64,000 nucleotides of DNA, from the NCBI RefSeq assembly GCF_001676785.2, contig NZ_CP015910.2:2790001-2854000 (forward strand), in the 5' to 3' direction. This document shows positions 3,591 through 62,208 of the stretch, piece by piece (the first letter of the stretch is position 1; each line of letters opens with the position of its first letter). Made by a program: the position numbers and the translations under genes. The stretch comes from Brachyspira hyodysenteriae ATCC 27164 (GTDB taxonomy: Bacteria > Spirochaetota > Brachyspiria > Brachyspirales > Brachyspiraceae). Under the pieces are notes generated by a model. It was not told where the DNA came from and did not search any database. It saw only the letters and a program-made list of their open reading frames with translations.

Positions 3591-3619
3591 AAATTTTTCC
3601 TTATCTTATAACCTTCATA

Positions 3620-3817
3620 CCGCACGGTGAATAAATTTACAAATATAATACGATTCTCAATTATTAATACAAATCATAAATAAAGTTAAGTCAATCGTGC
3701 GTTAAATAGATTTTTAAAATTAAATAAAGCTTGGGTGGGTGCTATATTTTCTAATAGCATAAAAAACAGAATAAAGTAAAAATTTCATAATAATGCCTTA
3801 AAGAATAAAGGGCGGGG
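3620..3817. repeat. modular palindromic element, site 1 (half copy)
   Basis: It carries CCGCACGG at 3620, CGTGCG at 3696, GCTTGGGTGGGTGCT at 3729 and AAAGGGCGGGG at 3807, in that order. This is one arm of the large palindrome seen at nine other sites in the window. The rest of this 550-bp gap (3818-4064) is AT-rich with no gene. Confidence 0.85.
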
Positions 3818-4029
3818 TATGTAAATAATTTTTTTTAATTTATTTTTATTATATACTCTAAAAAATAATAGATTTTAATAAAAATTTCAAACTTTATTCT
3901 AATTTTCATATTAAAATATCATATTTACAGCAAATTTCAAAGTATTTGTAAATATATTTTACATTAATCCTATTTATATTTCTTATTTATGTATAATATG
4001 TATTATTATAGTATGATTTTACTTTAGTT

Positions 4030-5011: not shown

Positions 5012-6250
5012 ATGAATAAATATATAATAATACTTGCTATAATGATTAGTTCTGTATTATCAGCTAATAGTTTCAAAGTGATATCAAGACAAGGGGAAGC
5101 CTCTGTAATTGTAAACGAAGAACATGCTGATATGGACATAAAAAAAAGTTTTCCAGATGATTATTTCTCTATATCTACAAAAGAAGAATCATATTTAGTA
5201 ATAGATAATGGCGAAAAATCAATAATACTTATGCCAAGTTCAAAACTCACTTATGAAAATAATAAATTCACTTTAGATTCAGGATATATTTATATAAAAA
5301 GCAAACATAATGATGATATTCAAATGACTTTAACAAAAGATGGAAAAGGATATAATTTTAAAGGAAAATCATTCGCTGTTGTATCCTATGATGATGAAGT
5401 ATCTGTTATAACATATAATAATGCCGTAAAAATCACTCCTGAAGCATCTTTGGGAGTAAGTTATTTTTTGGAGCCAAATCATAAAACATCTATAATACCA
5501 ATGCTTAATGGTCCTTATAGAACTACAGAAAATGAAAAATCTTTAATTGAAAATGTATCAAGACAATTAGAAAATGAAGTAGCAAGCCATCTAAATCAAG
5601 ATATAGACAGATATAATTTTAAAATAATGGAAGGTACAAAAAACGAAAATACTATATATAGAGTAGTTCATCCAGAAAAAGGTCCTAATATATTTTTAAT
5701 AGTACCTCATGGAAGCGAAAGAGTTGGTACTGATGTGGCAATGGAAAGAATCAATATGCCTATAAAAAAAGGAAGTCTTACTATAGTACCTATTGCAGTG
5801 CCTGAAGCATACAGAAAAAATACTAGAGCTATAGAAGGACAAGATATTAATAATAGATTCTTTGATAAAAAAATAAGCAGAACAGATACCGATAAATTAG
5901 CTAGAGAATACATGAAAATGCTTGATGAGTATAATATTGATGTTGTACTTACTCTTCATGAAGGAAACGGATTTAAAGAATTCTTTGGAGATTCTATAAT
6001 ATATGACAGCAGAAAATTAGACGATAAAGTTATAAAAGTATTGGAGAATATAAATTCTAGAATAGAACCTATGAAATTTAAATTTAGACAAATGTATTAT
6101 CCTATGCCTACAACTATCACATATTATGCTGCTAAAAAAAATATAGAATCTTTTGGAATAGAGCTTACAAGAAATTTAGATTATGATAAAAAAAGAATAA
6201 TTATGCATACTATATTAAGTGAGTTCTTAAAAATATATGGGCTTGAATAA
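5012..6250 (+). CDS. exported FecR-like domain fused to an M14-type zinc peptidase/deacylase domain
   Basis: The 412-aa protein begins with a signal peptide (MNKYIIILAIMISSVLSANS). Residues about 20-160 form a beta-rich FecR-like region (YLVIDNGEKSIILMPSSKL, LDSGYIYIKS). The C-terminal half carries PHGSERVGTD (candidate zinc-binding His and Glu), a later His in LTLHEGNGF and a candidate catalytic Glu in FGIELTRN. That arrangement fits the M14/aspartoacylase superfamily. Together this suggests a periplasmic carboxypeptidase or amidohydrolase that may act on cell-wall peptides. I chose the ATG at 5012 over an upstream TTG at 5003 because the signal peptide starts cleanly there. The exact family within M14 is uncertain. 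Confidence 0.65.
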   Translation: MNKYIIILAIMISSVLSANSFKVISRQGEASVIVNEEHADMDIKKSFPDDYFSISTKEESYLVIDNGEKSIILMPSSKLTYENNKFTLDSGYIYIKSKHNDDIQMTLTKDGKGYNFKGKSFAVVSYDDEVSVITYNNAVKITPEASLGVSYFLEPNHKTSIIPMLNGPYRTTENEKSLIENVSRQLENEVASHLNQDIDRYNFKIMEGTKNENTIYRVVHPEKGPNIFLIVPHGSERVGTDVAMERINMPIKKGSLTIVPIAVPEAYRKNTRAIEGQDINNRFFDKKISRTDTDKLAREYMKMLDEYNIDVVLTLHEGNGFKEFFGDSIIYDSRKLDDKVIKVLENINSRIEPMKFKFRQMYYPMPTTITYYAAKKNIESFGIELTRNLDYDKKRIIMHTILSEFLKIYGLE

Positions 6251-6288
6251 AATATAAAATATATTTAGTTTTAAATTTTATTCACATA

Positions 6289-6600
6289 CCCCGCCCTTTA
6301 TTTTTTATTACTATAATCTGCAATTTTTAATTTCTTTATATTTAAAGTCGATTCAGAAAATAAGAAATCCACCCAAGATGTGATTATGTTGAAAAATTTA
6401 TTTAACGCACGGTTAGATAATTTTTATATATAATATAATTGTTATAATGAACCGGCTCATATTTATAATTTTACTCTGCGTGCGTTTATGAAGTAATAAA
6501 TTAAAAAATCTCTAGGGTGGGAGCTATAAATTCTTTATAAGCAATAAGAAAGAAAAAAATTAACATTGAAGAATAAATTAATAAGAATATAGGGCGGGGA
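6289..6600. repeat. modular palindromic element, site 2
   Basis: Order of modules: CCCCGCCCTTT (6289), TCCACCCAAG (6368), CGCACGG (6406), GCGTGCG (6478), AGGGTGGGAGCT (6514), AGGGCGGGGA (6591). The left half is the imperfect inverse of the right half over about 310 bp. It lies between convergent genes. Confidence 0.9.
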
Positions 6601-6621
6601 ATGAGAATTTAGTTTTAAATA

Positions 6622-7381
6622 TTTTTATTATAAAAATTGACAGCCTGAAAGACTATGATAATAGATTATCAGACGCTGTCAATTTTTTATTAAAAACTTC
6701 AATAATTATTTTTCAAGCTTAAAGAATCGCATTGCTTCTTCTAGCTCTCTAGCTTTTATTATTATAAAAATTGACAGCCTAAAAGACTCTGATAATAAAT
6801 TATCAGACGGCTGTCAATTTTTTATTAAAAACTTCAATTAATTATTTTTCAAGCTTAAAGAATCGCATTGCTTCTTCAGCTCTCTAGCTTTTATTATTAT
6901 AAAAATTGACAGCCTAAAAGGCTCTGATAATAAATTATCAGACGGCTGTCAATTTTTTATTAAAAACTTCAATAATTATTTTTCAAGCTTAAAGAATCGC
7001 ATTGCTTCTTCTAGCTCTCTAGCTTTTATTATTATAAAAATTGACAGCCTAAAAGGCTCTGATAATAAATTATCAGACGGCTGTCAATTTTTTATTAAAA
7101 ACTTCAATAATTATTTTTCAAGCTTAAAGAATCGCATTGCTTCTTCTAGCTCTCTAGCTTTTATTATTATAAAAATTGACAGCCTAAAAGGCTCTGATAA
7201 TAAATTATCAGACGGCTGTCAATTTTTTATTAAAAACTTCAATAATTATTTTTCAAGCTTAAAGAATCGCATTGCTTCTTCTAGCTCTCTAGCTTTTATT
7301 ATTATAAAAATTGACAGCCTAAAAGGCTCTGATAATAAATTATCAGACGGCTGTCAATTTTTTATTAAAAACTTCAATTAA
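6622..7381. repeat. 135-bp tandem array made of the chemoreceptor gene end plus its terminator
   Basis: The sequence TTGACAGCC recurs at 6637, 6771, 6906, 7041, 7176 and 7311, a period of 134-135 bp. Each unit holds a long bidirectional hairpin (AAAAATTGACAGCC with GGCTGTCAATTTTT, with an inner CTGATAAT/ATTATCAG stem). It also holds a copy of the last 50 bp of the minus-strand chemoreceptor gene, stop codon included. Five extra gene-end copies (near 6705, 6840, 6975, 7110, 7245) precede the genuine one at 7382. The outermost unit is the most diverged. Confidence 0.95.
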
Positions 7382-9226
7382 TTATTTTTCAAGCTTAAAG
7401 AATCGCATTGCTTCTTCTAGCTCTCTAGCTTCATTTAACAGAGAAGCAGCAGCCGATGCAGATTGTTCTACCAAACCGGCATTCTGCTGTGTTACACTGT
7501 CCATCTGAGAAACTGCAGTATTTACCTGATCAACTCCTGCCTGCTGTTCTATAGCTGTTTCACTTATATCCCTCATTATATTTGAAGTTTCTTCTATTTT
7601 TTTCTCCAAATCCTCAAATATTTTCTCTGACTCTTTTGCTTTCTCTACAGATCTGCTAATCTTTTCATATATAACACTAATTAAAGAAGTAATATCCTTA
7701 GCAGAAGACTGTGAATTCTGAGCCAAATTTCTAACTTCACTCGCTACAACAGCAAATCCTTTACCTTGTTCTCCGGCACGTGCCGCCTCTACAGCAGCAT
7801 TAAGAGCTAATATATTAGTTTGAAAAGCAATATCCTCTATTACCTTTGTTATATTCTTTATTTTTTCACTATCCTCATTAACTTCTTCTATACTTTTAGT
7901 AGTTTCTAGAATTATAGCTCCGGCATCTTTAATAGAATTCATAGATTCCTTCATCATATTATTACCTTCTATAGAGTGGGAAGTAGATGATTTAATTGTA
8001 GAAGCCATCTCCTCCATAGAACTAGCAGTTTCCTCAAGACTTGCTGCCTGAGCCTCTGTTCTTCTTGATAAATCAGAATTACCATTAGCTAATTCCTGAG
8101 CTGCATTAGTAATCTTAATAGAAGAATCATTAACCTGAGATATTATCTCTGTTAATTTTTTACGCATTCCGCTGAAAGATTCAAATAATATACCAAGCTC
8201 ATCTTTTCTCTTATGCTCATTTGAAACATAAGTTAAATTTCCTGTTTCTATCTCTTTGGCCTCTCTTATAATACTGTTTATATGCCCCATTATTCTCTTT
8301 ATAAATAAGGCAACAAATATAGATAATAATAAAATAGCGACTAAACCTACTAATGAACTTATCAAAATTAATTCCCTATTTGTAGCATATACTTCGCTAT
8401 CAAACATAGTCATAGCAATTATCCAATTCATTGATTTCATTTTGCAGTAAGAACCTGTTCTTTTTTTATTCATATAAACATATGATAAAGTACCCTGTGT
8501 CAAATTATTATCAAATACCGTTTTATAAGCCTGAACTACACTGGAACCTATTTGCTCATAAATATTATCCATTATATCTATCAAATTAGAATCGATAGCA
8601 AGTATTCTTCCTGTTTCTCCCAAGTTTATATCTGAAAAATAATTATCATGTATTAGCTTCCAATCTATTACAACAAGTATTGCCCCCAATAAATTTCCGT
8701 CTAAACTTTTTATAGCACCGCCTAATATCAATGATTTATTTCCAGTATCTACAGAATCTATTATTTCCTCATCAAATGTATATTCAAAATTCTTAGCCTC
8801 TAATATATTCCAAAAATTAGGTCTTGTATCAGCAATATTATTACCTATAGAATTCCCCAAAGCATCAGCTATAATATCACCATTCAAATCTATTACAGCT
8901 ATATTTATAGAATATTCATTAGCCCCATTAAATAATTCTAAAGCCTTTAATGCATCGGCTTCTGTCTGTTCATTTCTATTTAAAAGTGAATTCATTATGG
9001 CCGGAGCAACCGAATAAGTCTTAGCTAAAGAAACCTGGTCTATCAATATAGCATCAAATAATTTAGCATATGATTGTGCTGTATTGGCGAATCCTTCAAA
9101 TCTGCTTTTGCTTATGCCTTTACTAGCAAAAGTTACTGCTATGCTTAATATAATGAATATTATTAATATGGATATTACTGATATTATAGCAGGAACTTTG
9201 AAAGATAAACTATGTATCCTTTTCAT
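7382..9226 (-). CDS. methyl-accepting chemotaxis protein
   Basis: A 614-aa transmembrane chemoreceptor. Membrane helix 1 is at about residues 10-32, followed by a periplasmic sensor of about 250 residues with Cache-like features ([33 protein letters not shown]). Helix 2 is at about 285-310, then a HAMP domain (to about 362) and the coiled-coil signalling domain. The conserved hairpin tip runs from [20 protein letters not shown] to [14 protein letters not shown] (about 463-503). It would signal through CheW/CheA to the flagellar motor; the ligand is unknown. The last 15 codons and the terminator are tandemly repeated downstream. A paralogue lies at 17921. Confidence 0.95.
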
Positions 9227-10364: not shown

Positions 10365-11885
10365 ATGGATTATAATGAAAAGTTATATAATGTATTTTCC
10401 AGCGGAGAGCAGAGATTGGAATCATGGATGGCTGCTGTATTCACTAAAGAATATGATCATAATATGACAATTGATGAATTCAGAGATATATTATCAGAAT
10501 CTGATGAATATATGGTATTAGAATTTAATGAAATAGAAGAATCTAATTTTATAAGAGATAAATCTAAATGGGAAGCATCTATTAAACTGCAGTATTTGCC
10601 TATGGTTATGGATGAAGATGATCATTCCTGCGGATGCGGACATGATGAAGGCGGATGCTGTCAAGATGATGAAGAACATTCTTGCGGCTGCGGACATAAC
10701 CATGACGATGAAGAACATTCCTGCGGATGCGGTCATAACCATGACGATGAAGAACATTCTTGCGGATGCGGTCATAATCATGATGAAGAAGAAAATAATG
10801 ATGAACTTAGTTTTTATGTAGCATTAGTTGATGCTTCAAGCGTTACTGAGAATGTTCCTGAAATATTCTCTGTAAATACCGTAAGAGAAGATGACTATAA
10901 AGAGGCATGCCAATGTAAATATGCTGTACATGTATCTACAATATTTGATAATCATCCTCTTACCGACTATCAAAGACAATTAAAGTTATTAGACAGTTTA
11001 GTTCCTGAATGTTCTATATTTTTAGATATGTCTTGCTATACAGCACATTCCGGAGATTGGCTTTCTTATACATCAACTTTTGCTTTGCCTCCTTCTTTGG
11101 ATTATCTATACACTATTCATGCGGTTTATGATGATGATAAAGACCCTAATAAAGTAGAATATTGGTTCCATACCCATGGGCTTTACAGAGTAGGATCTAT
11201 AGAATTAGAAATAGTAGGAGTTGAAGATTCAAATGCTGCTTATGGGGCATTGCTTAATACTTGTGCTAAAATGTTTATAGAGAGAGGAGTTCCTGAGGCT
11301 GGATTCAAATTTAATCCTGCATATAATACTTATGTATGCTGGTTCCCTTGGCAGGAGGCTTTGAAGAAATTAAATATTGCTGATGATGTTACAGGAAGTG
11401 CCAAAGACAGAAATGATGGAGTACATAACACTCCTTCCGGTATCTTGCTTGCTGTAGATGCTGATGGTAATTATCATTCACTTGACTATTATAAAAATGA
11501 GCTTACAGACAATCCTATGTTTATGATGAGCTATTTTGAAACTTCTCTTATGAGAGAGGCTGCTTTTGAAAAATTAGAATATTTCTTAGAATTATTAAAT
11601 AAAAATAAAGGTGATGAAAAAACTTCTTTCTTAGTAAAATTAGGATACGGAGAAACAGAAGAAAATCCTAATGATTTAGAGCATTTATGGTTTGATGTTC
11701 ATGGCTTTACTAATGAAGGATATTTCGATGCTACTTTAATAAATGAACCTTATAAAGATTTAGGTATGCATGAAGGCGATAGAGGAATGCATAGCATAGA
11801 AAGACTTACTGATTGGGAAATATATACAGAAGAAAATAACTATAATTCAAGAAATATATATCTATTATTTCAAGAAGAAGAATAA
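10365..11885 (+). CDS. DUF4026/DUF2314 protein with inserted Cys/His-rich repeats
   Basis: A 506-aa soluble acidic protein. The body matches DUF4026 (for example CYTAHSGDWLSYTSTFALPP and the following HAVYDDD...YWFHTHGL). The C-terminal segment (LEHLWFDVHGF...GDRGMHSIERLTDWEI) looks like DUF2314. Residues about 87-143 are an insertion of four units, HSCGCGHD then three copies of HSCGCGHNHDDEE, encoded by near-identical 39-bp repeats. Such Cys/His/Asp clusters bind soft metals (Zn, Ni, Cu), so metal buffering or sensing is plausible but not proven. A good ribosome-binding site (GAGG) and a downstream terminator make it a single-gene unit. Confidence 0.75.
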   Translation: MDYNEKLYNVFSSGEQRLESWMAAVFTKEYDHNMTIDEFRDILSESDEYMVLEFNEIEESNFIRDKSKWEASIKLQYLPMVMDEDDHSCGCGHDEGGCCQDDEEHSCGCGHNHDDEEHSCGCGHNHDDEEHSCGCGHNHDEEENNDELSFYVALVDASSVTENVPEIFSVNTVREDDYKEACQCKYAVHVSTIFDNHPLTDYQRQLKLLDSLVPECSIFLDMSCYTAHSGDWLSYTSTFALPPSLDYLYTIHAVYDDDKDPNKVEYWFHTHGLYRVGSIELEIVGVEDSNAAYGALLNTCAKMFIERGVPEAGFKFNPAYNTYVCWFPWQEALKKLNIADDVTGSAKDRNDGVHNTPSGILLAVDADGNYHSLDYYKNELTDNPMFMMSYFETSLMREAAFEKLEYFLELLNKNKGDEKTSFLVKLGYGETEENPNDLEHLWFDVHGFTNEGYFDATLINEPYKDLGMHEGDRGMHSIERLTDWEIYTEENNYNSRNIYLLFQEEE

Positions 11886-38484: not shown

Positions 38485-38700
38485 CTTGGGTGGGAAGCTG
38501 TAAATTCTAATTTAGCAACAATAAAAAATAATAGTATTAATTTCAGATTAAAGCTATAAATATAAAGGGTGGGCAAATGTAATTAGATTTTAAAACTTTA
38601 ATTACATACCCCGCCCTTTATTCATTAATACCATAATTTGAAGTTTTCAATTTAGCTATTTTTTAAAGTATAATTATAAAATATAAAAACCCGCCCAAGC
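38485..38700. repeat. modular palindromic element, site 5 (no outer modules)
   Basis: Order: CTTGGGTGGGAAGCT (38485), AAAGGGTGGGCA, a central TGTAATTAGATTTTAAAACT dyad, CCCCGCCCTTT, ACCCGCCCAAGC (ends 38700). The CGCACGG/CGTGCG modules seen elsewhere are missing on both sides. It lies between convergent genes. Confidence 0.88.
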
Positions 38701-38832
38701 TTTATTTAAGTTTGAAAACCATTAAATGAATTTTATTTATCATTTAAATTAAAAGCCATTGTTGTAAATATTGAACTTACATATTTTGTATGGCTTTTAA
38801 TAAAACTAAACTTATTATAAAAATTTCTTAAT

Positions 38833-44490: not shown

Positions 44491-44806
44491 CTTGGGTGGG
44501 AGCTAAAAACTCTAATTTAATCATAAAGAAATAAAAAATTAAAATTTCAAAATAAATAAAGAACTTAGAGGGTGGGAAGTGTAATTAAATTGAAAAACTT
44601 TAATTACATTATCCCGCCCTTTATATTTTCTGCTTCAATCTGTAATCATAAGTTTTTTATATTAATAATTTAAATTAGAAATTAAGGCCCCCGCCCAAGC
44701 GTTATTTATATTTTAAAAATTTATTAACGCACGGTTAGCTAAATTACAATATAGTAAAAACTTGAATTGAAAATAAACTTATATTTTTAACTTTGTTCTG
44801 CGTGCG
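44491..44806. repeat. modular palindromic element, site 6
   Basis: Order: CTTGGGTGGGAGCT (44491), GAGGGTGGG (44568), central TGTAATTAAATTG dyad, CCCGCCCTTT (44613), CCCCCGCCCAAGC (ends 44700), CGCACGG (44728), GCGTGCG (44800). Together with AT-rich flanks it fills the 600-bp gap before creD. Confidence 0.92.
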
Positions 44807-45006
44807 TTAATAAAATAAAACATATAAAAAATCATCGACTATGTGTAATTAGCATATTGTTATAATAAAAAATAATATTTAAACTATTATACCATTTATA
44901 TTACAAATCATACTATACAATCATTTTTTATTATTACTATTTTTTATTACCTATTTATGGTATTATGGTTTTTTATACAAAATAAAATTTTTATGGGGTA
45001 AATATA

Positions 45007-46396: not shown

Positions 46397-46822
46397 CGCA
46401 CGGTGAGTTGGCTTCAAATTTAATGAAAATTTAAATTATAATTTTTGCTAATATTTAAGTTTAGTTTACCGTGCGTTAATATATGCTATAAATTTAAATA
46501 TCCGCTTGGGTGGGTATTAATAAATTCTAATTTGACAGCAAGAAAATAAAAATTTATATAACAAATTAATATTTTAAATATAGAGGGTGGGCTTTGTAAT
46601 TAAATTTTAAAACTTAAATTACATACCCCGCCCTTTATTCTTCATTACTATAATCTGCAATTTTTAATTTATTTATATTTAAAGCCAATTCAGAAATAAA
46701 AGCACCCGCCCAAGTTTTTTTAAATTTAAAAATTTAATTAACGCATGTATTATATAATGTTGTATTTTTATGATAAGTATAATTTTAATTTTTATTATAT
46801 TTTTTGTTTTTCTCAGCATGCG
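46397..46822. repeat. modular palindromic element, site 7 (complete)
   Basis: The full module order is present: CGCACGG (46397), CCGTGCG (46469), CGCTTGGGTGGG, GAGGGTGGGC (near 46583), central TGTAATTAAATTTTAAAAC dyad, CCCCGCCCTTT (46626), AGCACCCGCCCAAG, CGCATG, GCATGCG (46816). The last pair is slightly eroded. It lies between convergent genes. Confidence 0.93.
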
Positions 46823-55653: not shown

Positions 55654-55741
55654 AATAAAAATCCTTAAATAAAAATTTGTATTAAATTATACAGCTTTTT
55701 TAAAAATAGTAAATTGTATTTTATTAAATTTTATTCTCACT

Positions 55742-56054
55742 CCCCACCCTCTAGGCTTGATAATTTTTATTAGAATATTTTGTTTTTAGTATATTTGTTA
55801 ATCTCATTAGAATTTTCAGCACCCGCCCAAGTTTTTTTTTAAAATTTGCAGCTTATACACCCGCACGCAGAGTAAAACTATTAATATAAATAAGTTATTA
55901 ATCAAAATCAAATTATATATAAAAATTCACTTACCGTGCGGTTAATAGACTTTAAATCTAATAAACGCTTGGGTGGGTATGCTTTTTCTGAATTGGATTT
56001 AAATATGAATAAAGCTCTTAATTGTAAATAAAGTTAAGAAAAATAAGGGGCGGG
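55742..56054. repeat. modular palindromic element, site 9
   Basis: Order: CCCCACCCT (55742), AGCACCCGCCCAAG, CGCACGC, CCGTGCGG, CGCTTGGGTGGG, AAGGGGCGGG (ends 56054). It lies in a divergent gap, ending only about 38 bp before the adh -35 box. Confidence 0.9.
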
Positions 56055-56091
56055 ATTTGTAATAAAAATTCAAAAATATGTATATTTCCTA

Positions 56092-61819: not shown

Positions 61820-62143
61820 GCTTGGGCGGGTGCTAATAAATTCTAATTTGGCTTTAAATATAAATAACACTAAACTTTAAAATAAAGCTATAAATTTAAA
61901 AAAGTGGGGGTATGTGAATAAAGTTTTAAAAATTAATTACAATTGCCCACCCTTTATGCTTTTTACATCGTTAAGTCATTTCTAGATTATTTTCCTTTTT
62001 TGTTTTAAACTGTTATTTTAGCTGCCCGCCCAGGATTTTTTTAAATTTATTATGTACTAAGCGCACGCAGAGCAGAATTTAAAATATAGAATAATTTATA
62101 ATTATAATTTAAATCATATATATATAAATTAGCCTACCGTGCG
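61820..62143. repeat. modular palindromic element, site 10
   Basis: Order: GCTTGGGCGGGTGCT (61820), AAGTGGGGGTATG, central dyad, GCCCACCCTTT, GCCCGCCCAGG, CGCACGC, CCGTGCG (ends 62143). It lies between convergent genes. Confidence 0.9.
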
Positions 62144-62208
62144 TTAAATAAATAAAAAATAAAATAATACTTAAAATTTTAATCGGATAATAAAGATAAA
62201 TGAATTCT

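Follow-up and report, generated by a model that had tools for sequence, protein, structure and literature searches.

The tandem array behind the chemoreceptor gene is best read as a minisatellite that arose by local duplication and unequal exchange, not as a selected block of six terminators, and we put the probability of this reading at roughly 0.78. In the window (the whole 64-kb stretch of DNA that was analysed, from a genome consisting of a 3.04-Mb contig and a second contig of about 33 kb), six tandem units of 135-136 bp occupy positions 6619-7429 on the minus strand, between two converging genes, the chemoreceptor gene and a carboxypeptidase-like gene (Table 1). TRF returned a period of 135 with 6.0 copies at 6625-7431 (98% matches, score 1547), by far the strongest tandem array in the window; these 6.0 direct copies of 135 bp compare with the two tandem copies of a unit above about 10 bp that suffice for a minisatellite. 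Read along the minus strand, with borders counted from the first repeated codon, each unit runs from 15 codons through a TAA stop and a spacer of approximately 18-20 bp to a 56-57-nt hairpin and about 12 bp of flank. Five of the six units are extra copies of the terminal 15 codons, stop codon and hairpin of the gene; TRF and the unit alignment agree in this with the preliminary description, which had reported a gene end with a terminator-like hairpin amplified into five extra copies and six hairpins. A sequence search found no second copy of the whole 135-bp unit elsewhere in the genome.

Table 1. Array units and the two converging genes (window coordinates).
Feature	Position	Strand	Details
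Methyl-accepting chemotaxis protein gene	7382..9226	-	614 aa, HAMP + MCPsignal; repeated tail = final 15 codons + stop
Unit 1	7294..7429	-	136 bp; gene's own tail + stop 7382-7429; hairpin 7306-7362
Unit 2	7159..7293	-	135 bp; silent tail 7246-7293; hairpin 7171-7227
Unit 3	7024..7158	-	135 bp, identical to unit 2; silent tail 7111-7158; hairpin 7036-7092
Unit 4	6889..7023	-	135 bp, identical to unit 2; silent tail 6976-7023; hairpin 6901-6957
Unit 5	6754..6888	-	135 bp; tail copy 6842-6888, frameshifted (2-bp loss); hairpin 6766-6822
Unit 6	6619..6753	-	135 bp, outermost, most diverged; silent tail 6706-6753; hairpin 6632-6687
AstE/AspA or M99-like carboxypeptidase gene	5012..6250	+	Convergent neighbour

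The interior units 2-4 are identical to one another, and unit 1 departs from them only in a single additional A behind the stop codon. This extra A is common to units 1 and 5, the latter differing from the interior units by one substitution and a few indel bases, and unit 6 carries six substitutions and two gaps. The exact hairpin core is present in units 1-5 only (0 matches in shuffled sequence), and the 15-residue tail is encoded identically by all copies in this genome except the frameshifted one. It had been proposed that the units nearest the gene are almost identical, that the outermost has diverged and that the array grew from the gene side. The near identity and the divergence of unit 6 hold, but the perfectly identical trio lies in the interior and unit 5 shares its indel with unit 1, so that growth from the gene side is not established. 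At its far edge unit 6 passes into the old single-copy flank; the outermost unit is the one in the oldest context, which does not fix the direction of growth.

The array hairpin folds with -24.5 kcal/mol and is followed by UUUUU, and the A-tract ahead of it serves the opposite strand. A stable stem-loop followed by a U-run is the make-up of an intrinsic terminator, and each hairpin is a plausible two-way terminator between the convergent genes. The outer stem occurs in several versions (TTGACAGCC/GGCTGTCAA, CTACCGCC/GGCGGTAG, ACCTGC/GCAGGT and CTACCTCC/GGAGGTA), most of them well paired. Among the receptor-gene hairpins 7 of 22 pairs are changed on both sides, a value reached by 1 of 500 shuffles and set against 0-2 in slid controls; since these changes are compensating, pairing is under selection and the hairpin is structurally constrained. 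The promoter-like TTGACA in each hairpin results from the stem sequence and the AT-richness of the genome (17 promoter-like matches in the region vs. 12.5 expected).

A search for close orthologues or co-orthologues of the receptor gave nineteen, and the downstream sequence of each was read; all named relatives in the comparison are Brachyspira (genomes bear G numbers, loci L numbers). One extra tail stands behind the orthologue in G025, G004 and G017, two in G008 and five in this genome, and there is none in G022, G023, G024, G006, G005, G021 and the more distant orthologues. Tail number at the orthologous gene is 1, 2, 3 or 6, with partly different hairpins, which bears out the suggested variation in repeat number; copy number differs between lineages as it does at VNTR loci, here between species represented by one genome each, and from this comparison we infer copy-number change within a species as well. 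In G017 the tail copy starts later in the gene, has a shorter, different junction and reproduces G017's own sequence, and for these reasons the duplication is taken as an independent event. The gene-body tree groups G025, G008, G022 and G024, and on it tails must have been gained or lost several times. Because the more distant G009, G014, G015 and G018 carry a short plain terminator hairpin with the same type of core (e.g., GTCTGGTAATTATTATCAGAC in G015), the array hairpin probably stands at the gene's own ancestral terminator position.

Evidence for exchange comes from the hairpins themselves. The last hairpins of G025 and G022 are chimeras, in which the left arm TTGACAGCC is joined to the right arm of another version, GGTGGCGGA or GGCGGCGGA, and their outer stems are weaker (-17.1 and -20.1 vs. 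-24.5 kcal/mol). Such chimeras are the product expected from recombination inside the shared core of neighbouring units, and this mark of recombination in two relatives supports the unequal exchange suggested earlier. In G008 the two hairpin versions are still separate, and in this genome the array has the same version at either end. In G022 and G023 the expressed tail is directly followed by hairpins of the dispersed (B) type, and in G008 and G025 the B hairpin follows the silent second tail; a comparison of the two pairs suggests that loss of the first unit by tail exchange would turn a silent tail into the expressed one. A lengthened protein, as envisaged in the preliminary description, does not follow from this, because every intact copy has its own stop, which tail exchange keeps, and the 19 close orthologues align over 612-614 residues and finish in the same manner.

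Duplication of a gene tail around a hairpin is not confined to this locus. For the background, 864 kb of this genome (the window among them) were sampled, together with 200 kb from G009 and a further 200 kb from G004. In the 864 kb, a tail-hairpin-tail arrangement was found at 4 of 670 gene 3' ends (the chemoreceptor locus, L202, L204 and L210) and an equivalent duplication at 0 of 670 gene starts, the apparent gene-start hits being paralogues or chance. The remaining tail-copy hits listed go back to neighbouring paralogues or to an open frame that an array creates, and the 200-kb samples of G009 and G004 held no tail duplications. This genome has about 48 chemoreceptor genes, a number similar to that of B. 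hyodysenteriae WA1, for which 46 have been reported (PMC2650404). An array common to all of them is ruled out by 45 further 3' ends without tail repeats; the similar arrays looked for at other chemoreceptor genes were thus not found there, and it is non-chemoreceptor genes that have the tail-hairpin-tail arrangement.

Intergenic arrays whose units contain a hairpin also occur in this genome (111 bp x 7.1, 147 bp x 3.5 and 107 bp x 2.4) and in G009 (83 bp x 4.5 and 89 bp x 6.0). At L196 (11963-12751; G000:C1:2731963-2732751) seven 111-bp hairpin units start a few bases behind a stop codon and, 111 being a multiple of three, give rise to a spurious 198-aa open frame. Repeats of other kinds were noted as well. 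In G004 an intergenic 44-bp tandem array (L238, 11318-11621; 6.9 copies, 98% matches) is without a strong hairpin. At L190 (9395-9983) a 280-bp stretch stands twice in tandem with 100% identity and contains CCGCCGCAAAA, a match to the 11-bp direct repeats that bound a B. hyodysenteriae prophage (PMC8845278). A dispersed non-coding repeat of about 350 bp (approximately 6255-6625), with terminal inverted repeats at 6269-6305 and 6583-6619 and the ends CCCCGCCC / GGGCGGGG, adjoins the outer end of the chemoreceptor array; it matches dozens of places in the genome, and in the window it recurs at 3613-3828, 38575-38718, 44595-44833, 46606-46776, 55733-56087 and 61925-62153. Coding-looking short tandem repeats of 21 and 39 bp (Cys/Gly/Asp-rich) lie at window positions 10630-10793, beyond a metallopeptidase-like gene.

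The L210 locus allows filled and empty sites to be compared. In this genome and G002 two copies of its tail, each about 35 bp long, enclose a hairpin of some 78 bp, and in G018 they enclose a slightly longer version of it; no hairpin follows the second tail. At the orthologous site of G009 and G010 the tail is found once and without a hairpin, i.e., the site is empty, and G005 also has a single tail, judged by overlapping match coordinates. G002 also has a paralogue of the L210 gene, and at the same stop codon this paralogue carries another, different hairpin, accompanied by a 12-bp duplication. At the L204 gene the tail-hairpin-tail arrangement arose independently in several species, G017 having duplicated its own tail around its own hairpin. 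The L210 sequences are better accounted for by an insertion that duplicated its target than by a simple tandem duplication, and the first step at the chemoreceptor gene may accordingly have been an insertion too.

Six dispersed hairpins, elements of about 70 nt with copies spread across the genus, could be aligned. Their TTTA loop is invariant and their 3' bulge unequal, and five of the six have the right flank ATA-(G/A)CAATAAT, the conserved flank being AATAATA; 12 of 18 pairs show compensating changes. A covariance model built from these six, with the array hairpin left out, ranked the array hairpins first in the window, on the gene's strand (30 bits, E 4.5e-5; next unrelated hit 21.6 bits), a score to be read against the approximately 22 bits that ordinary hairpins reach with this model and the modest scores between families. 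Conversely, the model of the receptor-gene hairpin finds members elsewhere, among them the local arrays L183 and L217 and the tail-duplicating hairpin L202. A common origin of the array and dispersed hairpins is, on these models, likely rather than proven. The array hairpin is not a copy of an exact dispersed repeat: by sequence the unit is unique, and its kinship is visible only with structure models. A strict nested-stem scan proved too strict and found little beyond the array, and in Rfam no family scored above its gathering threshold, the array giving chance hits only and the dispersed elements none.

With the array-hairpin model, three of the better matches fall across the final codons and stop codon of Rpn-family genes (PDDEXK_2, TIGR01784, 'putative transposase'): L205 8220-8292, L192 13753-13844 and L226 10063-10135, with about ten such loci in the 1.26-Mb sample. 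On account of these overlaps the Rpn family is suggested as a candidate partner of the hairpin elements, but only as a lead, because the Rpn genes concerned are themselves paralogues. A search for the Y1 (REP-type) transposase, PF01797, gave no match in this genome (controls were positive in 5 of 14), and no IS1634-type transposase scored over the cut-off in 26 Brachyspira genomes.

How far do these data speak for other explanations? That the hairpin is a mobile, non-autonomous palindrome, which inserts in the sense direction just after stop codons with direct duplications of variable length and so founded the array before it expanded, is a serious possibility that nevertheless falls short of being probable. 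It draws on the site at L210, empty with a single tail of about 35 bp in G009, G010 and (by match coordinates) G005 and filled here and in G002 and G018; on the second, different hairpin with its 12-bp duplication in the G002 paralogue; on the independent events at L204, with the host's own tail in G017; and on the dispersed copies across the genus, their conserved right flank and the first rank that their model gives to the array hairpins. On the other hand, both transposase searches were negative, stem sequences differ widely between elements, and generic hairpins approach the same model scores. Furthermore, single-copy relatives also have a related hairpin at the chemoreceptor gene, and for that reason plain tandem duplication explains this locus. 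A wider proposal, that Brachyspira harbours families of conserved palindromes of about 70 nt that insert sense after stops, duplicate from 12 to more than 100 bp of gene tail and expand into arrays, the chemoreceptor's included, is offered tentatively and with considerable doubt.

A tandem terminator block, selected because it insulates the convergent neighbours, is unlikely, although an A-tract precedes and a U-tract follows each hairpin, the genes converge and pairing has been kept by compensating changes. Single hairpins suffice in most orthologues, syntenic convergent ones included, so six are not needed for termination; the unit also drags along 15 codons useless to a terminator, and one copy is frameshifted. 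The fail-safe function that had been considered for the array is weakened by the same observation, most relatives having one hairpin. Still less probable is a silent store of 3' cassettes that varies the receptor C-terminus or the terminator by recombination: the silent tails of G008 do read LEK and LDS where the gene reads LDK, and the tail with B hairpin that is silent in G008/G025 is the expressed end in G022/G023, yet one or two terminal residues differ, protein length hardly changes, and the intact copies here encode the same tail. Identical 135-bp units are a known risk of short-read assembly, but an artefact is very improbable given the private differences in units 1, 5 and 6 and the non-identical repeats at the same place in G008 and G025, which cannot be collapsed or expanded copies of one unit.

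The minisatellite reading can be put as a sequence of steps. The starting unit would be the 3' end of the chemoreceptor gene with a structured hairpin about 18 bp past the stop, able to end transcription from either side. In a first duplication the sequence just past the hairpin would have been fused with a point within the gene's end; the two sides of this junction can be seen to have only a few bases in common. The 135-bp units have since expanded, contracted and become uniform through slippage or unequal recombination, involving tails as well as hairpin cores, as the chimeric hairpins, the identical interior units and the 1-6 tails among species show; slippage or RecA-type exchange fits the homogenisation step. 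Silent tails would be interchangeable with the expressed one, and losing unit 1, as the comparison of G022/G023 with G008/G025 suggests, would place another tail and terminator on the gene. The same type of event has taken place at other genes and in other Brachyspira species where a hairpin element follows a stop codon, and the array is most likely a side effect of hairpin elements that sit at the ends of genes rather than an adaptation of the receptor. Such a locus illustrates a simple route by which a gene end and its terminator could be copied, swapped and homogenised together, and it could supply polymorphic markers for a genus of spirochaetes that live in animal guts; the filled and empty L210 sites offer a direct comparison for working out how the hairpins spread.

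With intrinsic (Rho-independent) terminators the array hairpins share a stable stem and U-run directly behind the stop and a putative two-way action between convergent genes; here, by contrast, six stand in a row with coding sequence between them, and their two-part stem, one-sided 3' bulge and TTTA loop are shared with the dispersed elements. REP elements and BIMEs are likewise dispersed extragenic palindromes near gene ends, sometimes clustered. REPs are 20-40 bp long, most of them bear a conserved terminal GTAG or CGTC tag, and they have been connected with the REP-associated tyrosine transposase (PMC3733652, PMC2817692), whereas here the elements measure 56-70 nt and have an AATAATA right flank, the array copies all point in the same direction and the genome has no Y1_Tnp; neither the RAYT transposase nor a 20-40 bp palindrome with a GTAG/CGTC tag is present. 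The variable length over which the flank is directly duplicated recalls insertions of the IS1549/IS1634 type, whose direct repeats are long and range from 8 to 514 bp (PMC2266710). At L210 there are a 35-bp duplication and an empty site, and 12 bp in the paralogue, the other loci being without a clear empty site. Those elements, however, are insertion sequences of 1.5-2 kb with a transposase, and the ones described here are hairpins of about 75 bp in a genus where 0 of 26 genomes had the family transposase over the cut-off. A term search of Brachyspira genome papers and a keyword literature search found no mention of the hairpin elements, and the dispersed families are apparently undescribed. 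The closest likeness of the array is to bacterial minisatellites and VNTRs. B. hyodysenteriae genomes have been described as rich in tandem repeats (PMC8845278). Eight VNTR loci serve for strain typing (PMC9714239); the MLVA loci Bhyo_6 to Bhyo_23 given there have tandem direct repeats and lineage-variable copy number in common with the array. The array appears to be a minisatellite of this known general kind with an unusual unit, a gene tail together with a terminator-type hairpin.
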